Of a stretch of 33,643 nt of DNA, positions 20,570 through 26,609 are shown piece after piece (positions within the stretch are counted from its first letter, which is position 1; the number at the start of each line of letters is the position of its first letter). The stretch covers positions 1 to 33,643 of the forward strand of contig JAFXEW010000132.1 in the NCBI GenBank assembly GCA_017513625.1, written 5' to 3'. The notes beneath the pieces are model-generated. The model was given only the letters and a program-made list of their open reading frames with translations, had not been told where the DNA came from and did no database searches. The position numbers and the translations under genes are program-made. The DNA comes from Lachnospiraceae bacterium (GTDB lineage Bacteria > Bacillota > Clostridia > Lachnospirales > Lachnospiraceae).

Positions 20570-20682
20570 ATAAAAGAATAAAAAGTACAAAAGAGAAGGG
20601 GTATGGTGAAACCTCCCCGTTGATATGGCGTCTATAAGGATAGATGGAAATGATATCTATATACGGAAACGGGAGGTACATT

Positions 20683-21966
20683 ATGTTGAAGAAAAAATTA
20701 ATCCAATGGGTAGTAGTACTTACTGCAGTAGGTTGTTTGGGCGGTTGCGGAGAATCGGTGGAACCAGGCAGGGAAATCCCGGGAGCGCCGTTGCAGACAG
20801 AGGAAGAGCTTACATATGAACAGATGGAGGTTAAGGAAGCACCTATCAATACCTCCACCTTGCTGGCAACCAATATAGACCTGGTAGACAGGGTTAGCGC
20901 AGGTAATCCCGGACAAAATGTGATGATTAGCGGCACATCCTTAAACTACGCCTTGGCCATGCTGGGAAACGGCGCAGAACCGGAGGCACTGCAGGCTATA
21001 GAAGCATTCCTGGGACAGGATATTGCAAGTACCAACTCCTATTACGGGGAGTTACTGACCCGGCCGGAGACGGGCAGCGGCAATAAGCTGGTGATTAAGA
21101 ATGCCTTCTGGGTGGATGAAACCCTGGATTATGATGTGAAGAAGGATTACCTGAAGGTACTGGAGGATGTATATCAGGCCCATGTACAGGAGATTCCCAT
21201 GGATGCCAAAGGTATTAAGAAGGTAAACAGATGGGCTGCAAAGGCCACCGACAATATGGTGCAAAATGCCCTGAGCCCTCAGGATATTACTGAGGATACG
21301 GTATCCATTATCATGAATACCACACTGCTGGACGGTAAATGGGACAAACCTTTCCGGAAGGAAAATACCAGGGATGTAGATTTCACCATGGCTTCGGGAG
21401 ATATGGTGAAGGTAAAAGGTATGCATGACAGCGCCTACATGTACTACGAAAACGAATATGCTACAGGATTCCGCAAGGATTATAAAAAGAATGAATATTA
21501 TATGATAGCTGTACTTCCCAAGGAGGAAGGCGATTTCACCCTGGCAGGGCTGGATTTGGAGGGCCTGGTGGCAAGCGGCAAAACCACTTCAGAGCTGAAT
21601 GCAGAATTAAGTATCATGCTGCCTAAAACAGATTTTGAAGTGAAATATAATCTCACGCAGATATTAAAGGCAGCAGGTCTGGACCGGTTATTTGATAAAA
21701 GCAGAAACAATTTCCCGGAGATCTATGATAATGACAGCCCGGATTTTAAGTCCTATGCATCAGCCGTTATCCAGAACGACAGACTCATCATAGATGAGGA
21801 GAGTACCAGGGCAGCGGCGGTGACCAGTATCATGGTGGATAATTGTACTACAGCCTGGGAGGAGAAACTGCAATTACGGGTATATCTGGACCGCCCCTAT
21901 GTGTTACTGCTGATGGACGGGGAGACCGATGAGCCTTTGTTTGTGGCAAAGATTATGAAGCCTTAG
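20683..21966 (+). CDS. Serpin-family protease inhibitor, lipoprotein
   Basis: 427 residues from ATG 20683 (GGGAGG ahead). A lipoprotein signal ends LGGC (Cys22), so the protein is anchored outside the cell. The rest is a full serpin: NVMISGTSLNYALAML, KNAFWVDE, NTTLLDGKWDKPF, and the C-terminal DRPYVLLLMD. The reactive-centre hinge is intact: DEESTRAAAV (371-380) fits P17-P9 with Thr at P14 and small residues at P12-P10; Ser replaces the usual Gly at P15. By spacing P1 falls near Cys388 (context DNCTT). This suggests a working suicide inhibitor; the target is likely a serine or cysteine protease from host or neighbours. P1 position is an estimate. Confidence 0.93.
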   Translation: MLKKKLIQWVVVLTAVGCLGGCGESVEPGREIPGAPLQTEEELTYEQMEVKEAPINTSTLLATNIDLVDRVSAGNPGQNVMISGTSLNYALAMLGNGAEPEALQAIEAFLGQDIASTNSYYGELLTRPETGSGNKLVIKNAFWVDETLDYDVKKDYLKVLEDVYQAHVQEIPMDAKGIKKVNRWAAKATDNMVQNALSPQDITEDTVSIIMNTTLLDGKWDKPFRKENTRDVDFTMASGDMVKVKGMHDSAYMYYENEYATGFRKDYKKNEYYMIAVLPKEEGDFTLAGLDLEGLVASGKTTSELNAELSIMLPKTDFEVKYNLTQILKAAGLDRLFDKSRNNFPEIYDNDSPDFKSYASAVIQNDRLIIDEESTRAAAVTSIMVDNCTTAWEEKLQLRVYLDRPYVLLLMDGETDEPLFVAKIMKP

Positions 21967-22008
21967 AGTAAAATGTGGTTGTTATTTCGGATGCAAATAT
22001 TTTAAATA

Positions 22009-22037
22009 TTGACTTTGTCGCTTTGTTATATTAAAAT
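22009..22037 (+). promoter_or_regulatory. Promoter ahead of the c-di-GMP riboswitch
   Basis: TTGACT (22009-22014), 17 bp, TAAAAT (22032-22037). Transcription would begin near 22044, just before the aptamer. Confidence 0.75.
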
Positions 22038-22044
22038 GTACTTA

Positions 22045-22138
22045 AATAGGGATAGGCAAACTTATGGAAACATAGGGACGCAAAGCTGGAAGTTTAAGTA
22101 ATAGAAAGTACATTCTATTATAGTGATGGTTCGGTTGC
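22045..22138 (+). ncRNA. Cyclic di-GMP-I (GEMM) riboswitch aptamer
   Basis: Diagnostic GEMM blocks are in order: GGCAAAC (22055-22061), a 6-bp stem capped by the GAAA tetraloop (22061-22076), then GGGACGCAAAGC (22075-22086). A second arm contains a perfect TAATAGAA/TTCTATTA hairpin (22099-22120). The 3' end is about CGGTTGC. The spacing and the GNRA loop match class I c-di-GMP sensors. It controls the secreted CBM2-like gene at 22189. Confidence 0.85.
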
Positions 22139-22165
22139 AATGTTAGTTCATTGCAACCGTTTTTT
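22132..22165 (+). terminator. Riboswitch expression-platform terminator
   Basis: CGGTTGCAATG (22132-22142), loop TTAGTT, CATTGCAACCG (22149-22159), T6 (22160-22165): a perfect 11-bp stem. Its left arm overlaps the presumed 3' end of the aptamer, so ligand binding and termination may exclude each other (an ON switch), which is inference. Confidence 0.9.
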
Positions 22166-22188
22166 AATTTACATGAAAGGGGATAAAA

Positions 22189-23361
22189 ATGAAAAAGATG
22201 TTTAGGAAGGTAATGGTATTTTTAGTGGTGGTCATGCTCTGCATAGATGCAATGGGCGTTAGAGCGTTTGCAGAAGGAGGATCTAACAGTGCATCTTGGT
22301 CGAAAGATTCAAACACTTCAGATTATCACGTTCAGAAACAGAGTGAAGATTCTTTATATATGCAAGAGGATATGTCAAGAGAGGCATATGTATATGAATA
22401 TGAGAATTTTACTGTGGAGTATCTTATTCAAGGAAATTGGGAAGGAAATAGTAATGTACTTGTACGACTTTCGAATACATCAGATACAGTAATTGAAAAT
22501 TGGGAACTTACGTGGAAGTCGCAAGATATTATTTCTAATGTGTATAATGCGAAAATAAATGTTTCGAAAGATGTTTATACGTTTAAAAATTTGGGTTATA
22601 ACCAGGATGTTTTGCCGGGGGAAGCGGTTGAGTTTGGTTTTAACGTTACGTATAGAGAAAAATTACATATTCCTGCCGGTTTTGTACTGTCCGTTGTTGA
22701 GATGCAGACAGTAAAAGAGGAATTATACATTTTTGATAATGTAATAACAAATAAGTGGGAGGGGGGATATACAGGAGAGTTACATCTTACAAATTTAAGT
22801 AATAGTGTGCTGGAAGACTGGTACCTGACTGTACAGGTAGATGATCTTATTACAAGTGTTTGGAATGCCGAATTGACAGATTTAGGAAATGGTATGTATG
22901 GTATAAAGAATCCGGCATATCATCAAAACATTCAGCCGGCCGAAAGCATAGTTATCGGCTATTTGGCGAGTGGCAATAACAGTGAAACACTCAAACCGGT
23001 TGTATTAAGTGTACAAAAGAGTAATGGTTTGGCAATGCCGGAAGTTGAAGAAAGTGAAGAATCTACTGAGCGGGAGGAGTCTGGAGAAGATAATGAATCC
23101 ACTGAAAGTGAAGAACCGGAGGATAGTAGTGAAGAAGGGGAAAGTGGGGATAATAAAGAGTCTGTGGAAAACAGTGAACCGGGAGAAAGTGGAGAGTTTA
23201 CTGAGAGCGAAGATATTGAGGAGACGCAGGATAGCATAGAATCAACTGAGAGCAACGAGGTTGAAACGGAACAGGAGCAATTAAAAGAAAATTATGTTAC
23301 TGTGTTCAATGCCTTTGAGCAGATTGAAGGAGAAGAAACATGTATTGTACTGTTTAAGTAA
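22189..23361 (+). CDS. Secreted protein with two CBM2-like domains and acidic repeat tail
   Basis: 390 residues; AAAGGGG ribosome site. A signal peptide covers residues 1-28 (cleavage after AFA). Two tandem CBM2/cellulose-binding-like beta-sandwiches follow, ~72-172 and ~177-275. Each has a surface Trp in (E/D)xW, a V(Y/W)NA segment, a YxQ(D/N) turn and P(G/A)E near the end. A Glu/Ser-rich tail (~286-355) looks like a wall-spanning stalk. The C-terminus ends TCIVLFK without LPxTG or a membrane anchor, so how it is held is unclear. It is under the c-di-GMP riboswitch, fitting an adhesin or matrix-binding protein made during a sessile state. Carbohydrate binding is inferred from fold only. Confidence 0.8.
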   Translation: MKKMFRKVMVFLVVVMLCIDAMGVRAFAEGGSNSASWSKDSNTSDYHVQKQSEDSLYMQEDMSREAYVYEYENFTVEYLIQGNWEGNSNVLVRLSNTSDTVIENWELTWKSQDIISNVYNAKINVSKDVYTFKNLGYNQDVLPGEAVEFGFNVTYREKLHIPAGFVLSVVEMQTVKEELYIFDNVITNKWEGGYTGELHLTNLSNSVLEDWYLTVQVDDLITSVWNAELTDLGNGMYGIKNPAYHQNIQPAESIVIGYLASGNNSETLKPVVLSVQKSNGLAMPEVEESEESTEREESGEDNESTESEEPEDSSEEGESGDNKESVENSEPGESGEFTESEDIEETQDSIESTESNEVETEQEQLKENYVTVFNAFEQIEGEETCIVLFK

Positions 23362-23376
23362 ATTTATTGGAGTTAA

Positions 23377-24039
23377 ATGAAAAAGAGAAGATATAGCGAA
23401 TATAATTTAAAAATTATTCATTTGGTAGCGATAGCAAGTGTGTTTTTATTTTTTCTGATTGACGCTGTAATGTTAATGGAAGAAGTTTTCGATATACGCT
23501 TTCTGTCTTTGATTATTCCGAAAAAAGAATCAGTGATACTGTATCTGTGGCTTGGTAGGTGGTTATTTTTACCAATTATATCTGGTGGATGCTGGTATAT
23601 GTATTTTGAAAGATATATATGCTTGAAATTATCAGAGGAAGAAAAATCAGCGTATAGTCAAGAACGAAAAAGACTTCTAATAAGTATTGGGGCAGAGGTC
23701 TTGGCGGGGATGATTGCGATAGTAAATCTACACAGTATTCTTATGTTTTTGGTAGAACACTGGGAATATATAAATGAACTGGTGGCATGGGCCATAATAA
23801 AAAGCCTTTTTGCGGTTATTTGGGTGTATGTGTGGTTTTGGTGTCTAAAAAGAAGAAAGAGAGGAGGCGATTATCAAGGTATAAGTATTTGCAAGGCAGT
23901 TGGAGTAATGGCGTTATTGATTCTGATAGGTGTTTTATCAATAGTAGTGACGGCAAAAGTATATGAAGAAGCAGAGACAGTCAGATTTAGGAAAATGCTT
24001 GAGTATTACGATCAATACGGAGAATATAAGTATTCGTGA
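23377..24039 (+). CDS. Multi-pass membrane protein A, next to CBM2-like gene
   Basis: 220 residues, ATG 23377, 15 bp after the CBM2-like gene with TTGGAG as ribosome site. About five hydrophobic segments (~10-35, 52-75, 100-125, 137-157, 170-192). Between the second and third is a conserved-looking WYMYFERYI motif followed by a charged loop; the C-terminal tail has VRFRKMLEYY. It is related to the protein at 24191 over this whole plan. No family recognised. Its place in the riboswitch unit suggests a role in secretion, anchoring or modification of the CBM2-like protein, but that is inference. Confidence 0.7.
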   Translation: MKKRRYSEYNLKIIHLVAIASVFLFFLIDAVMLMEEVFDIRFLSLIIPKKESVILYLWLGRWLFLPIISGGCWYMYFERYICLKLSEEEKSAYSQERKRLLISIGAEVLAGMIAIVNLHSILMFLVEHWEYINELVAWAIIKSLFAVIWVYVWFWCLKRRKRGGDYQGISICKAVGVMALLILIGVLSIVVTAKVYEEAETVRFRKMLEYYDQYGEYKYS

Positions 24040-24190
24040 CTTGAATCTATTTACATTTGGGGGGCGGGCTGGTAAGTGGGATATTACTTTACAGAAAGAA
24101 TATAAGGTAAAGAACTTATTAGTGTCGTAGTAGATAGTCTGACTACAGTTTGAATGGAAGTGATTATGAGACCTAGAGGAAGGGCAGAAG

Positions 24191-24793
24191 ATGAGAAGGG
24201 ATTCTGTTTTAAAAGAATTGAAGATAGTTAAGGCGGTTGCGGTTGTGCTCACCGTACTGCATTTTGTGTCATGCAGTATAGGTGTTTGGTCACAGAACGT
24301 TGCCATATCGGCAGAAGCAGATATATTGGCAGGACTTTTGTTTTATTTTCTGCCGTTTCCGACTATATTCAGTTGGATTATGTACATAGAACGGTATGTG
24401 CATTGGAATTGTGTGCTCAGTGGCGTAGAAGATAAAAAAGCGATTCATAGGCAATGCTATGAGAAGCTTATATATGTGGCCATATGTGCCTTTTGTTTTG
24501 AAGGGAGTTTACTTGCAGTGGTTTATTTTGTGGCAAACTATAAGGAATACTTAGCCGGACTCAGTACTTATCTGTGCGTAATAGTATTGCTGGCTGCTTT
24601 TTGGCTCTTTTATCTGATGTTCACCATAAAAAGGATAAGGAAAAACAGTTTGGAAAGTGGTAGGGAAAAGAACAAAAAAGCTTACAAAATTACTTTGTTG
24701 GTATTGGCACCCATATCTATATTAGGGATTCTTTTGCTTATTTACGAAGCTGATTCGGTTGTTTTTTTGAGACGAATGCTGGAGGAAGTTTAG
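24191..24793 (+). CDS. Multi-pass membrane protein B, paralogue of the preceding one
   Basis: 200 residues from ATG 24191 with GGAAGGGCAG just upstream. Same plan as the protein at 23377: membrane segments near 13-33, 45-68, 90-112, 122-144 and 164-185, a WIMYIERYV motif after the second, and a C-terminal FLRRMLEEV. The pair therefore arose by duplication and has diverged strongly. The 151-bp gap before it lacks a clear promoter, so readthrough from 23377 is likely; it ends in a strong terminator. Function unknown. Confidence 0.7.
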   Translation: MRRDSVLKELKIVKAVAVVLTVLHFVSCSIGVWSQNVAISAEADILAGLLFYFLPFPTIFSWIMYIERYVHWNCVLSGVEDKKAIHRQCYEKLIYVAICAFCFEGSLLAVVYFVANYKEYLAGLSTYLCVIVLLAAFWLFYLMFTIKRIRKNSLESGREKNKKAYKITLLVLAPISILGILLLIYEADSVVFLRRMLEEV

Positions 24794-24853
24794 GATTGCC
24801 GGATGTAGTGGATTTACTATGGGGATACACATTTTCTTTATCAAAAAAGGTTT

Positions 24854-24880
24854 GAGCGGACGTTTGTCCGCTCTTTTTTT
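24854..24880 (+). terminator. Terminator of the riboswitch-controlled unit
   Basis: GAGCGGAC, loop GTTT, GTCCGCTC, then seven T. A perfect 8-bp GC-rich stem. Confidence 0.93.
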
Positions 24881-24892
24881 ATACATTTTTTA

Positions 24893-24920
24893 TTGACATA
24901 GAAACATTTGGTGTTATAAT
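24893..24920 (+). promoter_or_regulatory. Promoter of the fatty-acid synthesis operon
   Basis: TTGACA (24893-24898), 16 bp, TATAAT (24915-24920). Both hexamers are perfect. Confidence 0.85.
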
Positions 24921-24930
24921 ATTCTCAAAT

Positions 24931-24944
24931 TATTTAATTAAATA
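24931..24944. promoter_or_regulatory. Candidate FabT-type operator
   Basis: TATTTAATTAAATA is a perfect 14-bp palindrome just after the predicted start of transcription. A MarR-family gene ends this operon (32369), so it is a reasonable operator for that regulator. AT-rich sequence makes chance palindromes common. Confidence 0.45.
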
Positions 24945-24992
24945 TATTTAGATAAAAGAATTGAAGTGAAGGTAACGGGAGGAGTGTTGTGT

Positions 24993-26609
24993 ATGAAAGT
25001 AAGGAAGTGTCCGGCCTGTAAAACGGAGACTGAGAGAAGTGTGTTGGACAGTAATTATTCCATATGTCCCGCCTGCGGACATTATATGAGATTTCATGCC
25101 AAAAAGAGATTGCAGTCCCTGGTAGATAAAGGCAGTTTCAAGGAATGGGACGGTGATTTGGAGTGGAGCAATCCATTAAATGATAAAGAATATGCAGAAA
25201 AAGTGGAGGATGCTTCCAGGAAGCACAATCTTAAGGATGCCATCATTACGGGAGAGGCCTGTATAGAGGGGAATTCCGTGGCTATAGGCGTGATGGATAC
25301 CCGGTTTATGATGGCGAGTATGGGTCAGGTGGTAGGTGAGCGTGTGACCAGGCTCTTTGAACGTGCCACAGGCAAGAAGCTTCCGGTGATTCTGTTTTGC
25401 TGTTCCGGAGGCGCCAGAATGCAGGAGGGAATCATCTCCCTGATGCAGATGGAAAAGACCGCCGCGGCAGTAAAGCGCCATGATGGGGCAGGGCTTTTGT
25501 ATATCTCCGTATTGACCAATCCTACCATGGGTGGTGTGACCGCCAGTTTCGCCCTGATAGCGGACATCATTCTGGCAGAAAAGGGAGCCATGATAGGCTT
25601 TGCAGGGCCTCGTGTCATTGAACAGAACACCGGTGTGAAACTGCCCGAAGGCTTTCAGACGGCTGAATTTCAGATGGACCATGGTGCGGTGGATGATATT
25701 GTGGAGCGTGCCAATATGCGCAGGTACATGGGGATGGTGTTAAAGCATCACCGGAAAAAACGCAGCCGGATCATATGCCCCGGAAGCATTGAAAAGGAAG
25801 GCCGGGGTATGGTCAGTCCCGGGGCCCTCAGCGCATGGCAGACGGTACAGAGGGCCCGGGCCACGGACAGACCCACCAGCCTGGATTACATGGAAAAGGT
25901 ATTTGACTCCTTTTATGAGCTTCACGGGGACAGAACTATAGAGGATGACCATGCCATAGTGGGAGGTATTGCTACCATCTGCGGCACACCGGTAACAGTT
26001 ATCGGAGTCCAGAAGGGTAAAAGTGATATACAGGAAGCACTCTATCGTAATTGGGGCATGCCTTCTCCTGCGGGTTACAGAAAGGCTCTGCGTCTGATGA
26101 AGCAGGCAGAAAAATTCGGCCGTCCCGTTATCTGCTTTGTGGATACCATTGGTGCAGCCTGTGGCAAAGAAGCGGAGGAGCAGGGGCAGGGTCATGTGAT
26201 TGCCCGGCTTTTAAAGGAGATTTCCACTATTAAGGTGCCCATATTGTCCATTATTCACGGAGAGGGCGGCAGCGGCGGCGCATTGGCACTAAGTGTTGCC
26301 AATGAGGTCTATATACTGGAGCATGCGGTCTATTCTATATTGACGCCGGAGGGCTATGCAAGCATCCTGTGGAAGGACAGTAAGCGTGCACCGGAAGCGG
26401 TGGATATGATGAAGATGACCTCCAAAGATTTGTATGACCTGCAGGTGGTGGACAAAATATGTGCGGAACCTGCTGAATTCGATGAAAAAAACATGCGCAA
26501 AATGTGCTTGAAATTAAAGTGGGACATTTTGATGTTTTTAAAGAAATATCACGGAAAGAGCGATAAGTTCATTTTGAACCAGCGCTATGAAAGGTTCCGG
26601 AAATTCTAA
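24993..26609 (+). CDS. accDA: Acetyl-CoA carboxylase carboxyltransferase, fused beta-alpha subunit
   Basis: 538 residues from ATG 24993 (GGGAGG upstream). The N-terminal half is AccD: zinc ribbon C6/C9/C25/C28, then the crotonase-like core (CCSGGARMQEG, NPTMGGVTASFA). From ~residue 255 the AccA half follows (SPGALSAWQTVQRAR, FYELHGDRTIEDDHAIVGG, IHGEGGSGGALAL). It transfers the carboxyl group from biotin to acetyl-CoA to make malonyl-CoA. Separate AccD and AccA are each about 280-320 residues, so the fusion is slightly compact but complete. AccB and AccC genes are not in this operon and must lie elsewhere. First gene of the operon. Confidence 0.95.
   Translation: MKVRKCPACKTETERSVLDSNYSICPACGHYMRFHAKKRLQSLVDKGSFKEWDGDLEWSNPLNDKEYAEKVEDASRKHNLKDAIITGEACIEGNSVAIGVMDTRFMMASMGQVVGERVTRLFERATGKKLPVILFCCSGGARMQEGIISLMQMEKTAAAVKRHDGAGLLYISVLTNPTMGGVTASFALIADIILAEKGAMIGFAGPRVIEQNTGVKLPEGFQTAEFQMDHGAVDDIVERANMRRYMGMVLKHHRKKRSRIICPGSIEKEGRGMVSPGALSAWQTVQRARATDRPTSLDYMEKVFDSFYELHGDRTIEDDHAIVGGIATICGTPVTVIGVQKGKSDIQEALYRNWGMPSPAGYRKALRLMKQAEKFGRPVICFVDTIGAACGKEAEEQGQGHVIARLLKEISTIKVPILSIIHGEGGSGGALALSVANEVYILEHAVYSILTPEGYASILWKDSKRAPEAVDMMKMTSKDLYDLQVVDKICAEPAEFDEKNMRKMCLKLKWDILMFLKKYHGKSDKFILNQRYERFRKF

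Follow-up and report, generated by a model that had tools for sequence, protein, structure and literature searches.

A candidate c-di-GMP-I ON riboswitch upstream of a predicted secreted twin-CBM2 protein gene in a Lachnospiraceae bacterium

In Vibrio cholerae, the class I cyclic di-GMP (c-di-GMP) riboswitch Vc1 controls gbpA; it is described as an ON switch, downstream of which no Rho-independent terminator was apparent (PMC4744006). The class I (GEMM-I) riboswitch of pilM in Geobacter is also reported as an ON switch; there, the aptamer cannot form together with the terminator, which sequesters the ligand-pairing C75 (PMC9262584). In C. difficile, both class I and class II c-di-GMP riboswitches are reported to control surface proteins and adhesins, two of the adhesins being sortase-dependent (PMC6200980). 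Here we describe a locus of a Lachnospiraceae bacterium (contig JAFXEW010000132.1 of assembly GCA_017513625.1; the whole stretch analysed, 33,643 bases, is referred to as the window), in which a c-di-GMP-I riboswitch stands in the leader of a gene for a predicted secreted protein with two CBM2 domains. The window's genome is a draft of 2.17 Mb in 136 contigs, 81.8% complete. We consider it probable that the locus works as a transcriptional ON riboswitch, leading to a c-di-GMP-induced, secreted, polysaccharide-binding protein.

The Rfam scan proposed with the original prediction returned c-di-GMP-I (RF01051) at nt 22045–22142, with 55.1 bits against a gathering score of 35 (E 2.6e-8), spanning the full model (1–87) and carrying a GAAA loop on the first hairpin. 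It was the only Rfam match above gathering in the window. From the promoter-like site to the last hairpin, all features of the locus given here lie on the + strand. The base preceding the GCAAAC motif is a G (nt 22055), not an A, which we take to be the counterpart of G20 of Vc2, presumably the position that discriminates the ligand. Positions G20, A47 and C92 of Vc2 are named in PMC4744006. The window's genome has 10 GGDEF matches, so that c-di-GMP is probably made by this bacterium. An A replaces the G before GCAAAC in three other c-di-GMP-I matches (L001:1501-1585, L007:1501-1624 and L050:3773-3857), two of them in the window's genome; we presume this A to be typical of cGAMP-sensing (cyclic GMP-AMP-sensing) GEMM-I variants.

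The hairpin scan and the folds both gave an intrinsic terminator at nt 22132–22159, with an 11-bp stem, a 6-nt loop and a following TTTTTT run. Its 5' arm (nt 22132–22142) coincides with the final 11 nt of the aptamer match, thus bearing out the overlap proposed in the original prediction. Five positions (nt 22132–22136) that are paired in the Rfam aptamer structure are paired again in the terminator, and the conserved aptamer C at nt 22138 is also paired within it. The minimum-energy fold of the window leader shows the terminator, and when each state was forced without ligand, in folds that take no account of ligand or kinetics, the terminator state reached -35.9 kcal/mol against -25.7 kcal/mol for the aptamer state (aptamer helices forced), which points to OFF as the default state. 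When the aptamer was held in the fold, the remaining hairpin was just 6 bp, five bases away from the T run. Because the terminator needs the 11 nt at the aptamer's 3' end, a ligand-bound aptamer is expected to block its formation; the direction of the switch, absent from the original prediction, is thus predicted to be ON.

The same layout recurs. Each of the 11 riboswitches found 5' of twin-CBM2 genes has a terminator-like hairpin that shares nucleotides with the end of its aptamer, as detected by a scan without shuffled control in which G-T pairs and a single mismatch were permitted. In nine of them the overlap is 10–12 nt, extending into the aptamer's paired 3' strand. The third and fourth stem pairs vary between loci, being either T-A or C-G with both sides changed, and the pairing is kept despite the change of letters (the window type has GGTTGCAATG/CATTGCAACC, G115:C80 has GGCCGCAAGG/CTTTGCGGCC). 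Five other riboswitches were found in the window's genome: those on contigs C40, C63 and C19 have the same overlap, the one on C105 ends at the contig end, and the one on C79 has a separate terminator with no overlap.

The gene following the terminator (nt 22189–23361) is an intact open reading frame (ORF) with a purine-rich stretch ahead of its start, and codes for 390 aa with a signal-peptide-like N-terminus, from which export is predicted. PF00553 (CBM_2) matched this protein in two stretches with 101.2 bits against a cut-off of 24 (E 4.3e-29), in accordance with the secreted two-domain CBM2-like protein originally proposed. Domain A (nt 22411–22701) and domain B (nt 22729–23016) share 34% identity across 74 aligned residues; each by itself matches a solved CBM2 chain, 3ndy for A (E 1.6e-9) and 6f7e for B (E 3e-6). 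The positions aligned to W17, W54 and W72 of chain 1exg, which form its binding face, are all aromatic (W84, Y119 and Y137 in A; W190, W225 and Y244 in B). True CBM_2 matches together with aromatic residues at all three aligned positions make glycan binding by the two domains likely. Residues 283–390 (nt 23035–23361, stop codon included) form an acidic tail with 42 D/E and 4 K/R in 108 residues, the last stretch being less acidic. The acidic region noted originally is therefore present, but the term stalk does not fit a tail with nothing domain-like beyond it. At E <= 1, the Pfam scan of the protein returned only CBM_2 and a sub-threshold Raftlin match: no catalytic domain, no AA10 domain and none of the domains carried by its relatives was found.

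Other Lachnospiraceae twin-CBM2 proteins (L050–L057, L060–L063, L072–L076, L107, L109, L113 and L114) have the pair at the N-terminus after a signal-peptide-like start, as in the window, and some of their genes share its riboswitch. Most of them run on into long regions, with known domains in the 11 that were Pfam-scanned (L050, L051, L053–L057 and L060–L063; L051, L057 and L062 are cut by contig ends and L053 is a piece past a stop), whereas the window protein ends in its acidic tail. The domains C-terminal to the pair are subtilase in L050 and L054, VWA in L051, L053, L055 and L057, C-type lectin in L060 and L061, lipase in L063 and DUF4474 in L053; TSP3 repeats occur in nine of the 11, eight of them above cut-off. 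With C-terminal domains swapped among subtilase, VWA, lectin and lipase, these relatives resemble a delivery module with exchangeable cargo. Shorter twin-CBM2 ORFs were also present (G188:C15, 616 aa; G294:C40, 775 aa), and the paralogue on contig C4 of the window's genome leaves its contig within the acidic stretch.

Among 397 sampled genomes of the family, CBM_2 was found in 98 and c-di-GMP-I in 135 (E <= 0.001), the latter scan being run with stricter RNA filters. At least 23 genes with two neighbouring CBM_2 matches were present among the matches listed, and a c-di-GMP-I riboswitch lies just upstream in eight of the 23 listed (the window, G000:C4, G115:C80, G115:C154, G115:C165, G110:C60, G197:C58 and G197:C80); G047:C14, whose start lies outside the stretch examined, was judged by the whole-genome riboswitch scan. 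Searching the genome contig collection with a single protein as query found no relative. The search that did find relatives used five closer rows and retrieved nine loci in metagenome-assembled genomes (Lachnospiraceae, Clostridiales, Acetatifactor), seven of them with the riboswitch. Four of these seven are G115 and G197 again, the new ones being L107, L109 and L110, and no riboswitch above gathering was found at L113 and L114. The distinct riboswitch-linked twin-CBM2 genes thus number 11 across seven genomes, and the window's genome contributes two. In both of these two the riboswitch lies within 350 nt upstream on the same strand, which under uniform placement would occur by chance with a probability of about 3e-7 (2e-6 for at least two of the genome's four CBM2 genes).

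On a tree of 22 rows (from which G037:C155, G294:C40, the two G047 ORFs and the interrupted ORFs G110:C60 and L110 were left out) the riboswitch label needs four changes, against a mean of 7.2 when shuffled, and 4 of 500 shuffles were as low; the label is thus clustered. A single clade of riboswitch-linked genes was considered and rejected, as at least three of the four changes are forced by supported branches; these could be one gain and two losses. The window row has the second longest end branch (3.25) and its placement is unsure.

Under the ON reading, the nascent leader at low c-di-GMP would form the 11-bp terminator at nt 22132–22159 and transcription would halt 5' of the gene. At high c-di-GMP, the ligand-held aptamer would keep its 3' strand (nt 22132–22142) from the terminator, and RNA polymerase would read on into a predicted three-gene unit. 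The first product would be exported and bind polysaccharide via its two CBM2 domains, the most likely role being that sessile cells attach to plant-type glycan in the gut, with the protein as an adhesin or a secreted bridge.

Several findings weigh against this reading, besides the limits of the forced folds and of the hairpin scan given above. In G115:C165 and G110:C60 the overlap is 6 nt and begins past the paired 3' strand, covering only the end with the conserved C, so that exclusion would be weaker there, and the minimum-energy folds of some leaders (G115:C165, G000:C4) pick other pairings in part. Fifteen of the 23 listed twin-CBM2 ORFs have no riboswitch above cut-off, and the pairing is absent from both other sampled genomes of the window's genus, G022 having one riboswitch and no CBM_2, and G344 one CBM_2 and no riboswitch. 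Published work adds that the class I elements tested in C. difficile are described as OFF switches (PMC6200980). If this held for the window, c-di-GMP would promote termination and the motile cells would make the protein; we regard this as very improbable, because in Cd1 aptamer and terminator are described as able to coexist, competing with an antiterminator, whereas those of the window share paired nucleotides, as those of pilM do (PMC9262584). It is likewise reported that the class I element Bc1 binds its ligand without a response (PMC11218506), and the riboswitch might have little effect in vivo, or the divergent window gene, with its long end branch and no cargo domain, might be a decaying copy. 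Against this stand the intact aptamer and terminator, the intact ORF with the purine-rich stretch before its start and the aromatic residues kept in both domains; we hold this explanation to be unlikely.

A rival explanation concerns the surface that the protein would grip. The CBM2 pair might serve mainly to fix proteins to surface glycan or exopolysaccharide of the bacterium itself, with cargo domains attached in the relatives; the window protein, without cargo and left with its acidic tail, would then coat the cell or matrix instead of gripping food fibre. The joining of the pair to varied cargo (subtilase, VWA, C-type lectin, lipase, TSP3) in the 11 relatives is consistent with this, as is the finding that none of them, four being incomplete, has a Pfam anchor domain; moreover, c-di-GMP commonly promotes matrix formation. 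Against it, a CelA/BcsA-type cellulose synthase was not found in the 81.8% complete genome (the TIGR03030 score was 16.9 bits, with a cut-off of 699.1; no search was made for other exopolysaccharide routes), and the genome's GH5 cellulase bears a CBM2 domain, which makes plant glycan a plausible target. We therefore see a self-surface anchor as possible, though on the whole unlikely. Self-made cellulose was considered as a target and rejected, no CelA-type match coming near the cut-off; the two PilZ matches found belong to ORFs (243 and 116 aa) that are not long enough to encode such an enzyme. Whether the target is plant fibre or self-made matrix is a guess; the failure to find a CelA-type synthase and the presence of a CBM2 cellulase tip it towards fibre.

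As for attachment, no LPXTG-like motif was found in the 390 aa, in line with the original prediction, which saw no anchor motif. Its suggestion that the missing anchor implies a new attachment mode, or reliance on the two membrane proteins encoded downstream, found no support, since the 11 scanned relatives, four of them incomplete, also have no anchor family among their Pfam matches (E <= 0.01). It is simpler to suppose that the CBM2 pair does the attaching or that the protein is released from the cell. The first membrane protein (220 aa, nt 23377–24039) has four hydrophobic segments, starts 15 nt past the CBM2 gene and is probably on the same transcript; the second (200 aa, nt 24191–24793) is its paralogue, with 26% identity over 151 columns. 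Among 250 family genomes searched, the 249 other than the window's gave no match to the 220 aa protein, which is therefore not a general part of the arrangement; the membrane pair as an anchor for the CBM2 protein is thus unsupported by the relatives.

The remaining features complete the locus. A promoter-like site (TTGACT-17-TAAAAT, nt 22009–22037) ends 7 nt 5' of the aptamer; at the paralogous C4 locus a similar site, TTGACT-17-TAAGAT, precedes the aptamer at a distance of 3 nt. The originally noted succession of promoter, aptamer, terminator and secreted protein is thus confirmed, the promoter by a match to 10 of 12 consensus positions only, such sites being not rare by count in the region (19 found against 10.6 expected, standard deviation 3.7). 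Terminator-like sites were four in nt 21900–25000, against 1.1 expected, and include a hairpin at nt 24854–24873, where the three-gene transcript probably ends. A gene for a serpin with a lipoprotein-like N-terminus (nt 20644–21966; PF00079, 207.3 bits) lies shortly 5' of the riboswitch.

Two other riboswitch targets were observed in the window's genome. On C63 (L006:1501-3081), the gene behind the riboswitch codes for 176 aa; the protein looks secreted, contains a single RHS repeat and an acidic stretch rich in S/T, and ends in a short hydrophobic segment, which makes it another small acidic-tailed target. A further secreted-looking ORF comes next and is cut off by the end of the fragment. 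The C79 riboswitch (L001:1-1585), with its separate terminator, precedes a secreted-looking transglutaminase-like protein, and possibly follows the opposite logic within the same genome.

Among the four CBM_2 genes of the window's genome, one (C92:7101-8333; L081:7101-8333) codes for a protein in which a CBM_2 domain is flanked by two hydrophobic segments and which also has an HD domain. A search of 250 genomes with the sensor region gave matches in 53 (E <= 0.001), many being other CBM2 proteins with longer frames. From 12 genomes, the window's included, 12 ORFs of about 390–470 aa were read (L081 and its relatives L084–L086, L089–L095 and L100; other matches of similar length exist). HD domains were found in all 12 and CBM_2 (E <= 0.01) in 10; the hydrophobic segments were checked in the copy of the window's genome only. 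Two tryptophans of the outer domain (W68 and W112 in the first row) and the HHE...G.GY part of the HD-GYP motif are invariant across the 12 rows, whereas the final P of the motif is not kept in all of them (the copy of the window's genome has GYT), and L091 is missing the H of the HD pair. The name HD-GYP, that of a c-di-GMP phosphodiesterase family, is assigned from this motif, and the phosphodiesterase activity is putative. Such proteins occur in two of the four riboswitch-linked genomes of the G-numbered sets (G000 and G197) against 12 read of 250, with p about 0.012, a post hoc value for which the background is a lower bound and all four genomes are assumed to be among the 250. An open-licence literature search, in its listings, turned up no fusion of a CBM with HD-GYP or diguanylate cyclase. 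It is conceivable, if doubtful, that one c-di-GMP circuit in Lachnospiraceae has CBM2-type domains at both ends, where CBM2-HD-GYP would sense outside polysaccharide and alter c-di-GMP, and ON riboswitches would induce the secreted CBM2 grip proteins. In such a circuit, as speculative as it is, the cell would use one CBM2 domain to probe the type of surface that another grips, and the window gene would be the output half only. The CBM2-HD-GYP family suggests a route for reading fibre contact into a second-messenger level.

If the ON reading is true, c-di-GMP would directly govern polysaccharide attachment in gut Lachnospiraceae, where the open-licence literature listings showed no c-di-GMP riboswitch regulon; the open-licence PubMed Central listings also gave nothing linking c-di-GMP riboswitches to CBM2 proteins or to Lachnospiraceae. 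The locus would also provide a class I ON switch with a simple terminator in Clostridia, in contrast to the OFF class I elements tested in C. difficile. With that species it has in common clostridial c-di-GMP riboswitches associated with surface-protein genes, but no CBM2 protein was noted among the latter (PMC6200980), and sortase-anchored adhesins carry an LPXTG-type signal that the window protein does not have. With secreted cellulases and chitinases bearing CBM2 (PF00553; chains 3ndy, 6f7e, 6bt9 and 1exg) it shares the domain family and the aromatic positions; unlike them, it has no catalytic domain that could be found, and its paired N-terminal domains stand under a riboswitch. The layout of pilM, as described, is that of the window, where five shared paired positions and an 11-nt overlap set aptamer against terminator, although pilM senses cGAMP (PMC9262584) and the window has G, not A, before GCAAAC. 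Vc1-gbpA is alike in that the leader of a gene for a carbohydrate-binding attachment factor contains a class I c-di-GMP riboswitch, with positive regulation by c-di-GMP reported there (PMC4744006) and predicted for the window. GbpA, from a different phylum, has an N-terminal lytic polysaccharide monooxygenase (AA10) domain and no CBM2 twin. Vc1 is reported to have no apparent terminator (PMC4744006), whereas the terminator of the window overlaps its aptamer. In our best reading, the locus would thus work like Vc1-gbpA, but with another protein family and another expression platform.
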